64,000 nucleotides of DNA, taken from the NCBI RefSeq assembly GCF_011009015.1, contig NZ_CP048878.1, forward strand, positions 919,501-983,500, read 5' to 3'. The translations under genes and the position numbers were made by a program. This document shows, in pieces, positions 3,065 through 13,610 of the stretch. Numbering within the stretch: position 1 is the stretch's first letter; every line of letters begins with the position of its first letter. The notes beneath the pieces were generated by a model, which was given only the letters and a program-made list of their open reading frames with translations, was not told the origin of the DNA and searched no databases. Source of the stretch: Spartinivicinus ruber. GTDB taxonomy: Bacteria; Pseudomonadota; Gammaproteobacteria; Pseudomonadales; Zooshikellaceae.

Positions 3065-3487
3065 CTAAAACAGAGAGTATTGTTGAAGAGGAGGTGCGCG
3101 TGCTGGTTGTGCAGTTAAGGCCACTGGGAAGTGACTTAAAATAGTTGAAATAATCAGCGGATATTCGATACAAGTAATAATTCGCACAGACCCCTGGTGG
3201 CATTGAGGGAACTGGGAGGTATCAATGCTGAAGACGCGTTTAAGGCGTTCCATCGACATTTGATCACGAGCAGTCAACATCAAAATAGGTGTATCATTAC
3301 CGCTAACCCGTAATCGCTGATAAACAATCAAGCCATCCAGGCGGGGTAAATTCAGATCTAATAATAAAGTGTTGAAATAGTGCTGACCCTTTAGCTTAGG
3401 CCCATCCACCCTATTACTGGCATAATTACAACGGATATCTTCCAGTTCTAAATCCTTATCATCTTCTACCAATAAAAAAGTTAACAT
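3065..3487 (-). pseudogene. Decayed response regulator (receiver domain remnant)
   Basis: The N-terminus MLTFLLVEDDKDL is a receiver-domain start with the acidic pair. LLLDLNLPRLDGL carries the phospho-acceptor Asp and ILMLTARDQ the conserved Thr. Between the acidic pair and the Asp the spacing is irregular and the sequence unrelated. After about residue 90 the frame continues as non-homologous sequence instead of the lysine motif KPF, and no DNA-binding domain follows. This looks like an OmpR-type regulator broken by an internal rearrangement and a frameshift. No sensor kinase is present nearby. Confidence 0.65.
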
Positions 3488-3952
3488 ACTACTTTTTTTC
3501 TCTTGAGTCTGTATATAAATTTATAGATCACTACTAACAACATTCCACTTGTTCAACTGAGGCAGCCGTTATCTTCATTTTGGTGTAGGCTAGAGTAGTC
3601 CAAAAAAACTTTGTTATTACTTCGGTAATTTTATAGAAGGAAGGGTTAAGGAAGGGTTAATAAAATTTTATTTATCATCTTCAATTGGGTAAATTGAGAT
3701 TGTAGGGCTTTCACAGAAAATACTTTCATGCAGACAACGGTCATTATATAAACCTTCTTTTGACCCTCTGGTATCTTTCAGAAAAGTATCTAGTGAACAA
3801 AACAATTTATTTATGAATTATCAAGAAAATATGTATGCTTAATAACAATTGCTAACAGGAAGTTCAACCAAGGACGCACTGAAAGTGTTGCATAGCTTGG
3901 CATTATGCCTTACGGATTGACAGCAGCACTCATTGAGGAATAGAATCTCACC
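3488..3952. other. Gene-free stretch upstream of the histidine leader
   Basis: I see no credible gene here. At 3917-3946 there is a promoter-like TTGACA, an 18-base spacer and TAGAAT pointing right. It would place the transcript start at about the leader ATG (3953), so either the leader is translated leaderless or a weaker promoter upstream is used. A GAGGA sequence at about 3934-3938 could be a distant ribosome site. Confidence 0.4.
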
Positions 3953-4033
3953 ATGTTTATATTCAAATGCACCTCAGTTCATATTCATCACTCACAGCCA
4001 CATATTTGGCTGGGGGAGCTATTGCTTGGATGA
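3953..4033 (+). CDS. Histidine-rich leader peptide of an attenuator
   Basis: A 26-codon frame begins at ATG 3953 and ends at TGA 4031. Its middle reads VHIHHSQPH, giving four histidine codons (3980, 3986, 3989, 4001) within eight. It lies between a promoter-like sequence and a set of mutually exclusive stems, and precedes a histidyl-tRNA-synthetase-like gene. This is the arrangement of classical amino-acid attenuation leaders such as hisL. Ribosomes stalling at the His codons would cover the first stem arm (3995-3999). The peptide itself probably has no function. Confidence 0.8.
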   Translation: MFIFKCTSVHIHHSQPHIWLGELLLG

Positions 4034-4083
4034 ATACTAAGCCCATTCACTAAGAAAGCTCTCCCAGCCTGGCTGCGAGGGCT
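3995..4083 (+). promoter_or_regulatory. Histidine attenuator with antiterminator and terminator
   Basis: Four RNA segments can be seen. Segment 1 (3995-3999, CAGCC) pairs with the start of segment 2 (4008-4012, GGCTG). Segment 2 in full (4008-4020, GGCTGGGGGAGCT) pairs over 13 positions, one of them a G-U pair, with segment 3 (4057-4069, AGCTCTCCCAGCC). Segment 3 also pairs with segment 4 (4071-4083, GGCTGCGAGGGCT), which is followed by six T's. Stalling in the leader would free 2 to pair with 3 and allow read-through; normal translation would let 3:4 terminate. The logic is inferred from base pairing; the geometry matches his/leu/trp attenuators. Confidence 0.85.
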
Positions 4084-4088
4084 TTTTT
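4057..4088 (+). terminator. Attenuator terminator before the HisRS-like gene
   Basis: The stem is formed by 4057-4069 and 4071-4083, with one C-C mismatch and one wobble pair, and runs straight into TTTTTT (4083-4088). It lies 27 bases before the ATG of the downstream gene, so it controls that gene rather than ending an upstream one. Confidence 0.85.
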
Positions 4089-4114
4089 AATGTGAAAAAT
4101 TTGAGTGATGTAGC

Positions 4115-4747
4115 ATGGAATATAAAATTGATGCCCAGGCCAGAGGGGTTAGGATAATATCTGGCGAAGAAGCGAAGCAAAGGCGAGAACTACTGAACCG
4201 GCTTATTAATGTTGCCGAAGAGTATGGCTTTTCTGAAATTGTGCTTCCAAGTATTGAACCTACTACGGTTTATACAGATAAGGCAGGTCCAGAGATTTTA
4301 GGGCAAATGTATGCATTCCCTGATAAAAAGGGGCGTGAGCTATGTTTAAGGCCCGAAGGAACCGCAACTATCCAGCTTTTAGCAGATAAACACTTTAAAA
4401 GAAAAAAGGATGTCAAGTTTTGGTATTTTGAGCGTTGCTGGCGATATGAGCGTCCTTCCTTAGGTCGGTATCGTGAATTCTTCCAGTTTGGATTAGAGAT
4501 TCTCAATCCAAGCGATAAAAACATTGCGACAAACGAGTTGATTGTGATTGCTCAAAAAATGATTTCAGTTAAAACATCTGAATATGAGTTAGATTCCGCG
4601 GTAAAAAGAGGCCTTGATTACTACACTGAAGATGGTTTCGAAATCTCTGTGCCTGGTCTGGGAGCCCAAAAACAGATATTAGGTGGAGGGGCTTATAGAC
4701 AAGGTGTGGGGTTTGCCATTGGTTTTGATAGACTTATGTTAAGTTAA
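4115..4747 (+). CDS. Compact histidyl-tRNA-synthetase-like enzyme
   Basis: The 210-aa protein is a class II aminoacyl-tRNA synthetase core of the HisRS/HisZ type. LRPEGTATIQLLA (78-90) is the HisRS-type segment before motif 2. Motif 2 is around 110-128 (RYERPSLGRYREFFQFGLE). The histidine-binding signature RGLDYYT is at 165-171 and motif 3 GFAIGFDRLM at 199-208. Canonical HisRS is over 400 aa; here the insertion domain and the whole C-terminal anticodon-binding domain are absent. It could activate histidine without charging tRNA in the normal way, or act as a regulator. The upstream histidine attenuator supports a true link with histidine or tRNA-His. No partner gene with an obvious function follows. 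Confidence 0.8.
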   Translation: MEYKIDAQARGVRIISGEEAKQRRELLNRLINVAEEYGFSEIVLPSIEPTTVYTDKAGPEILGQMYAFPDKKGRELCLRPEGTATIQLLADKHFKRKKDVKFWYFERCWRYERPSLGRYREFFQFGLEILNPSDKNIATNELIVIAQKMISVKTSEYELDSAVKRGLDYYTEDGFEISVPGLGAQKQILGGGAYRQGVGFAIGFDRLMLS

Positions 4748-7081: not shown

Positions 7082-7098
7082 TTATAAATACCTAATAA

Positions 7099-7548
7099 GC
7101 AAAGGCCCAAACCAGTCAAACGGCAGTCGCTGAGCATAGCACCGAAACGATTGGCGGCACTAAAACCATAGAGGCGATGGGCTCATTAAAACTACACTCG
7201 GGCGGTACAACTGAACTAGCCGCTATCGATAACCTAAAAATAGCGACAGGCAACGACAGTCATACCGTCGTAGGTAATGATATGCAGGAACATATTAACG
7301 GCATTAAACACAGCCTGGCCAAACTCAAACAAATTACTCAAGTTAAAGACGGCGGCAAGGTCTGGTTGGGAAATGAAAGTGATAATGTCCTGCAACTGCT
7401 GTCGGAGTTTATGGCTGTGGTTGAACATGCATTTTTAGACCTTTCAACGCATGGTCATACGCCAGCAGGGCCGACTAATAAACCCAGTCTTATACAACAG
7501 GCAGGCAAGGTAAATCAGCAGAATTCTGATTTAAAGGTAATGCTTTAG
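7099..7548 (+). pseudogene. 5'-truncated copy of the prophage spike gene (fragment A)
   Basis: From about 7099 the DNA matches the 3' part of the baseplate spike gene at 45399-46349, in the same frame, with about 90% protein identity by eye. ATG 7177 (MGSLKLHSGG) corresponds to an internal Met of the parent. The fragment retains the native C-terminus (LDLSTHGHTPAGPTNK ... NSDLKVML) but lacks the OB-fold and first half. Downstream sequence is unrelated to what follows the intact gene. Either it is dead, or it acts as a recombination donor like orphan toxin-tip modules. Confidence 0.85.
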
Positions 7549-8597: not shown

Positions 8598-8963
8598 CAT
8601 TGCGACAAAAAATTCTGACCCGGAATCCAGAGGAGCGGAAAAAAGCACTCATCCTCCCCCCCCCTTCGGGTTTTGCGTCATAAGTATTTTGTGAAATTAA
8701 AAGTGATGCAGTGATGTGACTCTAGGCCCCACTGTATATGGTGGCTAGGTACTAACTGCTAATTTCACAAAATGCAAAAAAGTGAAAGGAAGTGCAAAGA
8801 AGTGAAAAATTGTGCAATACCTATCAATGGAGGCCATTTGATAACCCTAGTCTGTTTGAAATGTAGTCGAATGGAGTTGGGAACAGCTAATCAGTAGTTA
8901 TTGGCTGATTTTGTTTTGTAATAAAAGGGTGGCTTGGTTAAAATGTATTCGGCTGTTATACGT
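8598..8963. repeat. Dispersed intergenic repeat, copy R2
   Basis: This is the second full copy of the R1 element: the AAAAGCACTCATCCTCC core, an inverted repeat at 8686-8698 and 8761-8773 (ATTTTGTGAAATT and its complement), the GTGAAAGGAAGTGCAAAG block and the GGCTGTTAT tail. It occupies most of the gene-free stretch 8125-9027. The remainder (8125-8597) contains an A/T-rich leader region of the lipoprotein gene and nothing else I can identify. Confidence 0.8.
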
Positions 8964-12569: not shown

Positions 12570-12701
12570 AGTGAAATTAAAGACGAGTGCCTTAACTACC
12601 AGCTAGATACGCTAAACCAACAAACAAAAGCCCAAACCAGTCAAACGACAGTCGCGGAGCACAGCACGGAAACGATTGGTGGTACTAAAGCCATAGAGGC
12701 G
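12570..12701 (+). repeat. 5' end of spike-gene homology upstream of the Rhs fusion
   Basis: From about 12570 the same frame as the downstream gene reads SEIKDECLNYQLDTL and then QTSQTTVAEHSTETIGGTKA, matching the spike gene around 45860-45975. There is no ATG in this frame before 12702, and the frame is closed by a stop at 12513. The gene therefore lost its 5' half, and this stretch is a homology arm rather than a translated region. Confidence 0.75.
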
Positions 12702-13610
12702 ATGGGGAGCCTTAAACTACACTCGGGTGGTACAGCTGAATTAGTAGCCGCCGTGGATAACCTCAAAGTCGCCACTGGCAATGATAGTCATATTGTCGTA
12801 GGTAACGATATGCAGGAACATATCAACGGGATTAAACACAGTCTGGCTAAGCTAAAGCAAATCACCCAGGTAAAAGACGGCGGCAAGGTCTGGCTGGGGA
12901 ATGAAAGTGATAATGTACTGCAACTGCTATCAGAGTTTATGACTGTGGTTGAGCAATTAACCCAAGACCCGAAAGCGGCGACTAACCGCCGTGGTTTTAC
13001 AGGCCATGTGCAAGACCGTGACCTGGGCTTGGTGTACATGCAAGCACGCTATTACGACCCTGTGTTGGGTCGGTTTATGGCGATTGATCCGGTGGATGTG
13101 CTGGATTATATCAAAAAGGATAACCCTGTTTTTGGGTTTAACAGATATGCTAATAATAATCCATACGGGTACATTGATCCTGACGGGCTAGAAATAAAAA
13201 TCATTGGAAGTTCTTCTGTAATGGAAGATGTTTTAAAAGATGCTCTAAATACTCTTAGAAAAAACTCTGCGAATGCCGATCGTATAGTTAAAGACATTGA
13301 AAAAAGTAAAGAAGTTGTTGTTATAACTGATGGACCTGTAAACAAATATGATCCCGACGAGAATCTGTTACAGTACAACCGCTACTTTAAATCTAAGAGG
13401 CCAGATATGCAAATACCACCTGAGATTATCCTTGGACACGAATTAATTCATGCTAAAAGAGATTTAGAAGACGATACTAGTTTTACAAGATTCTTTGAGG
13501 AGAGAGAAACAGTAGGAAGTTGGCCATTTGAGGGTAGTGACACAGAAAATCAGATTAGAGAAGATTATAGAGAAAATGGAATTGATGTTCCTTCAAGAGA
13601 TGGATATTAA
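12702..13610 (+). CDS. Spike-Rhs-M91 metalloprotease toxin fusion
   Basis: This 302-aa fusion has three parts. Residues 1-85 are the C-terminal module of the prophage baseplate spike (GGTAELV ... FMTVVEQ). Residues 95-162 are an Rhs core end (RGFTGHVQDRDLGLVYMQ, ARYYDPVLGRFMAIDP, NPYGYIDPDG). Residues 163-302 are a toxin domain with HELIH at 246-250, EERETVG at 266-272 and TENQIRE at 281-287. These are the zinc-protease signature and downstream motifs of the M91/NleD-like effector peptidases. The N-terminal OB-fold of the spike is missing, so the gene may be an orphan tip awaiting recombination. A probable immunity gene follows after 3 bases. Confidence 0.85.
   Translation: MGSLKLHSGGTAELVAAVDNLKVATGNDSHIVVGNDMQEHINGIKHSLAKLKQITQVKDGGKVWLGNESDNVLQLLSEFMTVVEQLTQDPKAATNRRGFTGHVQDRDLGLVYMQARYYDPVLGRFMAIDPVDVLDYIKKDNPVFGFNRYANNNPYGYIDPDGLEIKIIGSSSVMEDVLKDALNTLRKNSANADRIVKDIEKSKEVVVITDGPVNKYDPDENLLQYNRYFKSKRPDMQIPPEIILGHELIHAKRDLEDDTSFTRFFEERETVGSWPFEGSDTENQIREDYRENGIDVPSRDGY

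Follow-up and report, generated by a model that had tools for sequence, protein, structure and literature searches.

The window analyzed here, the whole stretch of 64,000 nucleotides of Spartinivicinus ruber DNA, contains a gene for a 210-residue protein with the catalytic core of histidyl-tRNA synthetase (mini-HisRS), preceded by the anatomy of a ribosome-mediated histidine attenuator; in many relatives of this gene the N-terminal part and the body of the protein lie in different reading frames that meet at a His codon, where a +1 frameshift is predicted. Taken jointly, a His attenuator in the window, an accessory back-up mini-HisRS and a frameshift in relatives form a reading that we regard as likely. 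Comparison among relatives supports the attenuator as a genuine regulatory element, and its expected response would be to the level of charged tRNA-His. The features of the locus are as follows.

3917..3946, forward strand: sigma-70-like promoter, TTGACA-18-TAGAAT, matching the consensus at 11 of 12 positions
3953..4033, forward strand: leader peptide ORF of 26 codons with His at codons 10, 12, 13 and 17; orthologues also have His-rich leaders
3995..4012, forward strand: weak 1:2 hairpin CAGCC/GGCTG of 5 bp, with 80% paired cells among 7 sequences
4008..4020, forward strand: segment 2, the 5' arm of the antiterminator, in the last codons of the leader ORF
4057..4069, forward strand: segment 3, common to antiterminator and terminator
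4055..4088, forward strand: 3:4 hairpin of the intrinsic terminator and its six T, with 93.4% paired cells among 7 sequences
4115..4747, forward strand: mini-HisRS gene, 210 aa, HisRS catalytic core

The first-pass annotation of this DNA, made from the sequence without database searches, had described a histidine-type attenuator with a 26-codon leader carrying four His codons in eight. Such a leader is present at 3953-4033: it begins ATG TTT ATA TTC, ends with TGA, encodes MFIFKCTSVHIHHSQPHIWLGELLLG, and has its four His codons within eight codons. The antiterminator proposed there, a 2:3 stem of 13 pairs (4008-4020 with 4057-4069), was found exactly as described, and the proposed terminator with T-run corresponds to a hairpin at 4055-4085 followed by T residues at 4083-4088 (-16.6 kcal/mol). 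The 1:2 pairing in the same proposal exists (3995-3999 with 4008-4012) but is weak, being only 5 bp long with 80% of cells paired in clade A, the clade of the window gene. As a whole, RNA 3950-4095 outdoes 200 of 200 dinucleotide shuffles in folding (z -3.88). An Rfam search that included T-box and amino-acid leaders gave no match to the leader at the gathering score, the only hit in the window being a tRNA at another place; among amino-acid leaders only Phe_leader was listed, at 14.9 bits against a cut-off of 55.

The position at which the annotated element began, 3917, coincides with the -35 box of the promoter-like site, and only 6 nt separate the -10 box from the leader ATG. Because 2 sites matching at least 9 of 12 positions were found in the 501-base stretch where 1.4 are expected by chance, the promoter box in the window is by itself little proof; taken at face value, its placement would make the leader mRNA leaderless or nearly so.

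The his operon attenuator of enterobacteria combines a His-rich leader peptide, alternative 2:3 and 3:4 hairpins and an intrinsic terminator, and the window element resembles it in all of these. It differs in preceding a mobile mini-HisRS gene rather than a biosynthetic operon, in having segment 2 inside the leader ORF together with a weak 1:2 hairpin, and in a promoter-like site placed for a leaderless, or nearly leaderless, leader mRNA. In the mechanism that we propose, the start of transcription would coincide with the leader ATG or lie just upstream of it. With ample His-tRNA, the ribosome would cross segment 2 to reach the stop codon, 2:3 would be blocked, 3:4 would form and transcription would end; when His-tRNA is scarce, the ribosome would wait at His codons 10-13, 2:3 would form and the mini-HisRS gene would be transcribed.

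Folding of the window RNA with a ribosome footprint, which the first-pass annotation had suggested as a check, gives the expected switch at three of the four His codons. The footprint was modeled by blocking all bases up to 12 past the first base of the A-site codon. With the ribosome stalled at His 10, 12 or 13, arm 3 is found in 2:3 (0.91), and with the ribosome at the stop codon it is found in 3:4 (0.89), while a stall at His 17, the last of the four, favors the terminator (0.72). Since 2:3 is preferred (0.91) when no ribosome is present, untranslated window mRNA would read through. Among relatives, L022 and L030 move from a terminated ground state to 2:3 at the first three and four His codons, respectively, and L036 does so at His 12 and 13; full switching is seen only at His 13 in L003 and only at His 10 in L291, and no switch at equilibrium is seen with footprint folding in L145 and L172.

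Conservation of the anatomy was evaluated with a fixed scan for a short ORF having at least 3 His in 10 codons, followed by a terminator within 130 nt. With near-duplicates retained, 25 of the 98 family loci have both elements in this order, other genera included; a search upstream of orthologues was among the checks proposed in the first-pass annotation. The same scan gives 0/69 for ordinary hisS upstreams (69 of the 75 non-member loci met scan conditions) and 9/3000 for random 350-mers from the family loci and the window. No amino acid other than His is clustered in every one of the 25 positive leaders; Arg comes next (15). In clade A seven of the eight bacterial members are positive (the window, L003, L022, L030, L031, L033 and L034), as are all 14 intact members of clade B, which comprises Paraburkholderia, Burkholderia and Chitinimonas (L023, L024, L035-L043, L046-L048), and four phage loci (L145, L152, L156, L172). 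Members found later and scanned in the same way were positive for L272 and L291 and negative for L290. No His leader was detected by the scan in L032 (clade A) or L290, both near relatives of the window gene, in the phage members grouping with clade A (L110, L111, L113-L115, L117, L130, L139, L140), or in most other phage members; most in-frame phage members have neither leader nor frameshift. Neither is found in L004, a very divergent short homologue (45% identity) on a long branch. A decayed copy on a Paraburkholderia caribensis plasmid (L025) retains the leader and is missing both terminator and N-terminal part.

The leaders of clades A and B are unrelated in sequence and follow the same plan: in both, the antiterminator has its 5' arm close to where the leader ORF ends. 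A ribosome finishing the ORF would melt this arm, so that a strong 1:2 hairpin would be needless. The proportions of paired cells are 87.9% for 2:3, 93.4% for 3:4 and 80.0% for 1:2 in the 7 sequences of clade A, and 98.9%, 99.1% and 100%, respectively, in the 14 of clade B. Of the two kinds of support named in the first-pass annotation, His codons are indeed kept in orthologous leaders, contrary to its refuting condition of leaders that have none. For the stems, which differ between clades, covariation is almost nil, with one compensatory pair in the 3:4 stem of each clade, because within a clade there is hardly any variation in the arms; as proof of the stems it was set aside as uninformative.

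Promoter placement was compared across 27 family leaders by taking the best promoter-like pair with a -10 box ending 3-10 nt before the ATG; L030 and L031 have two possible leader starts, of which the one giving the shorter leader was used. Pairs with at least 8 of 12 matches precede 19 of the 27 leaders, the same loci giving 9.7% for 3375 other ATGs; for at least 10 of 12 matches the values are 5 of 27 and 0.15%. In 22 of the 27 leaders the best-scoring -10 box lies 6-7 nt upstream of the ATG, which suggests that transcripts may start at or near the leader ATG and that the peptides are possibly made from leaderless mRNA.

Matches of the 210-aa product to PF13393 and the hisS model are confined to the core. 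The protein scores 164.8 bits with TIGR00442 (the hisS equivalog) against a cut-off of 286.75, with an incomplete domain set, and 97.4 bits with TIGR00443 (HisZ) against 271.65; from these scores and the domain set, both HisZ and an ordinary copy of hisS were rejected as identifications. Alignment to E. coli HisRS spans residues 15-147 and 250-313, the insertion between the two blocks and the C-terminal domain being missing; these parts we take to be the insertion domain and the anticodon-binding domain, and the core motifs that remain to be motifs 1, 2 and 3 and RGLDYY. Columns invariant among 36 chosen members correspond to E. coli HisRS E83, T85, R113, Q127, E131, R259, Y264 and R311, all of which presumably have active-site roles. 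Mini-HisRS is thus like HisRS, HisZ and the laboratory HisRS Urzymes in its class II motifs and histidine-site residues, and differs from these in being a natural protein of about 210 aa that lacks insertion and anticodon-binding domains and falls under the hisS and hisZ cut-offs.

The same genome carries a full-length HisRS gene elsewhere (L002, a 428-aa frame). Among the matches listed for 114 other relatives, a short homologue aligned over its full length was found in two (G072 and G065), and two genomes of the same genus and two of the same family gave ordinary hisS matches only, again among the matches listed; the phylum sample contributed one more homologue among 397 others and the class sample two more among 368. 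Since few relatives have the short homologue, the gene is accessory, in agreement with the first-pass description of an attenuator placed before an accessory HisRS-like gene. Other copies are found on Pseudomonas and Paraburkholderia plasmids, in Massilia, Pleionea, Burkholderia and Chitinimonas genomes, and in phage records and predicted viral contigs, the longest of 608 kb. A PHROG search returned no match for mini-HisRS, and a defence-system assignment was rejected, the 210-aa protein having no PADLOC match. A tRNA gene lies within about 4 kb of 37 of the 69 unique phage genes, and the nearest is most often tRNA-His (12/37). At this distance tRNA-His accompanies 15 of 21 shifted vs 9 of 48 unshifted unique phage genes, and among tRNAs within 500 nt, 13 of 70 are tRNA-His where 6.5 are expected (p about 0.007). 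The gene appears to be horizontally mobile and to encode a catalytic-core-only synthetase with predicted charging activity. The simplest reading, and the most likely, is that mini-HisRS would act as a back-up enzyme restoring His-tRNA when it runs short.

In many relatives the same condition would be sensed a second time, or instead, by a +1 frameshift of the RF2 type. At 37 loci the RG-containing N-terminal part is out of frame with the body of the protein, in every case by +1 and never by +2; removal of duplicates and addition of L272 gave 36 unique loci. Further viral scans, which turned up mainly contigs already known, yielded no additional shifted gene. The shifted members belong to Paraburkholderia-type bacteria and predicted large phages, and the window gene itself is not shifted. 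Five loci stand outside the 37: the RG motif was not found in L025, L148, L158 and L164, and L183 is cut by its contig end. L164 has a deletion with frame change, the N-terminal part of L158 was not found, L148 is cut by a contig end, and L223 (the same as L266), on another contig and likewise left out, has lost its C-terminal part; broken copies lacking the His-codon step therefore do exist, being of the sort represented by L025, L164, L158 and L223.

In the predicted layout a Shine-Dalgarno (SD)-like stretch is followed, after a spacer of 3 nt, by CTT or GTT as the P-site codon and His as the A-site codon; with the His codon empty, the P-site tRNA would slip by +1, and only then would the enzyme be made. 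The slip codon is CTT in 28 of 36 and GTT in 8 of 36, and slipping of GTT to TTC would presumably entail a first-position mismatch, given the anticodons that we assume. No RF2-dependent stop codon was found in the A site, which is occupied by His in all 36 (CAT 30, CAC 6). At least 4 Watson-Crick anti-SD pairs precede the 3-nt spacer in 27 of 36 (33 of 36 if G-U is included) compared to 298 of 2270 control CTT/GTT codons (13.1%); no SD-like run of 4 was found in L116, L123 and L143 even with G-U allowed. His codons are absent from the zero frame between the RG motif and the slip codon (0/937), and [CG]TT-CAY does not occur in the first 90 codons after the RG motif in the in-frame loci (0/61); in the open frames of the shifted loci CTT/GTT codons preceding His amount to 199/4609 (4.3%). 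The two frames overlap by as little as 5 nt in L136 and 14 nt in L131, L132, L137 and L149, and these short overlaps pin the step to the CTT/GTT-His site.

Both reading frames are under selection. For clade B the N-terminal part has dN/dS of 0.096 in frame 0 (91 pairs; L272 dropped because of length) against 2.5 in the other frame, and the first 50 body codons have 0.024 in frame +1 (105 pairs) against 2.6. In clade C (19 unique phage members) the N-terminal part gives 0.32 vs 0.99 in the other frame; the value for the body is undefined because synonymous sites are saturated (0.792 differ vs 0.201 of others). The tree comprises 91 sequences, and because its long branches meet, only the starred local groups were used. 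L110 groups with clade A (99/93), apart from the other 35 shifted rows (which fall in a 40-row group, 100/99), and its CTT-CAT lies about eight codons earlier than in other shifted members, with CTC as the next codon; L118 groups with the in-frame L119 and L126 (100/94) and has CTT-CAT near residue 79, followed by CCC. The same dicodon at other places in L110 and L118 argues that the His codon itself is selected. Several phage members within the shifted clade (L119, L121, L126, L141, L112) are in frame and have no His leader.

The +1 break may accordingly be described as a candidate natural hungry-codon frameshift, the slip itself being predicted from the nucleotide sequences. It is likely, in our estimate, that such a shift at a hungry sense codon makes mini-HisRS, and that one mobile family has several separate sensors of the same tRNA, two of them stacked in the Paraburkholderia-type members.

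Several other explanations bear on these readings. That the leader is a chance ORF ahead of an ordinary terminator is barely credible: a His cluster alone does turn up in 187 of 3000 random pieces, but leader and terminator recur together in several genera and some phages, with a promoter-like site at similar spacing before the family leaders. The +1 interruptions might reflect decay or sequencing errors, or be bypassed by an internal start in the body frame, and in public records the genes of Sinorhizobium phage Phosso and Paraburkholderia are indeed annotated from internal starts; truly broken copies exist as well, as described above. This explanation is nonetheless highly improbable, as all 37 loci are shifted by +1 and every one has the His codon, clade B shows purifying selection on both N-terminal part and body, and the frames overlap so briefly; moreover, in 11 of 36 the body frame offers no ATG, GTG or TTG until after the motif-1 proline, and an ATG precedes that proline in only 5 of 36. 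A frameshift that senses a stop codon, and hence the level of RF2 as in prfB, with the His codon incidental, would fit the stop codons that follow His in 28 of 36 (TGA 22, TAA 6). We consider it improbable, since the following codon is sense in 8 of 36, whereas His is present in 36 of 36; CAC replaces CAT in six members of two groups even though this changes Ile to Thr in the +1 frame; and in L110 and L118 the codons after CTT-CAT are CTC and CCC.

A different kind of doubt concerns the protein, which might not charge tRNA even if the switch is real, acting instead as a HisZ-like regulator or transferring histidine to something else. The absence of an anticodon-binding domain and the score well below the hisS cut-off are compatible with this, and two Paraburkholderia members are named 'ATP phosphoribosyltransferase regulatory subunit' in their records. 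On the other side, the aligned catalytic residues are invariant in the 36 chosen sequences, the hisZ model scores below the hisS model (97.4 vs 164.8 bits), and tRNA genes, most often tRNA-His, lie near 37 of 69 unique phage members; in addition, HisRS Urzymes that have no anticodon-binding domain acylate tRNA-His in vitro (PMC4082485). We regard a non-charging protein as possible though doubtful, and charging of tRNA-His by mini-HisRS remains the preferred reading.

There is precedent for an attenuator that serves a hisS paralogue: one survey predicts His leader peptides upstream of Bacillus hisS* and hisZ, and describes the leaders of these Firmicutes paralogues as unlike proteobacterial ones (PMC2965389). 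The present element is like that of Bacillus hisS* in placing a His leader on a hisS paralogue, and differs from the hisS* and hisZ cases in serving a catalytic-core-only protein of Proteobacteria, plasmids and phages through attenuators of several unrelated sequences. For the frameshift the nearest parallel is prfB, whose motif approaches AGGGGG, three nucleotides, CTTT (PMC12421855); the slip site of L133 is CGGGGG-TAT-CTT-CAT, and an early +1 shift with an SD-like stretch 3 nt before CTT is common to both (PMC12421855, PMC5009743). Unlike prfB, the relatives have a His sense codon rather than UGA in the A site, GTT is also used, and the product would make the missing His-tRNA and not a release factor. 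Frameshifting at hungry codons in starved cells has a long history of study, and a review that describes it states of starvation-specific trans-frame proteins that 'no examples are known' (Atkins et al. 2016, PMC5009743). No word beginning 'histid' occurs in the part of the PRFect paper that was searched (PMC10885494), and among the matches listed from titles and abstract starts of the open-licence literature there was neither a hungry-codon frameshift in a synthetase gene nor a mini-HisRS.

Considered alone, the window attenuator is a new case of a known mechanism; viewed alongside its family, it suggests a new variant of programmed frameshifting. If correct, this would be the first natural example of hungry-codon regulation, together with a natural near-Urzyme synthetase. 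The 36 candidate cassettes, most with the RF2 layout and with His in the A site, make the hungry-codon question testable with reporters. That natural selection keeps a catalytic-core-only HisRS in bacteria and phages bears on minimal synthetases, and the family bears on why phages carry tRNA-His together with a mini-HisRS gene.

Several further features surround the locus in the window. Upstream of the leader and divergent from it, an ORF at 3065-3487 on the reverse strand has a receiver domain of the response-regulator type as its sole Pfam domain. A NUDIX protein at 5221-5646 matches the PADLOC candidate model PDC-S07 (2.7e-18). The mini-HisRS stretch is flanked by a repeat pair (1127-1475 and 8608-8959), 82-88% identical and about 7.5 kb apart. 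Two further copies of a sequence (7094-7427 and 12619-12955), 85% identical, lie at the start of ORFs 7177-7548 and 12702-13610; the segment following the second copy we take to be an Rhs-like core end, and the region may therefore be of the polymorphic toxin/immunity type.
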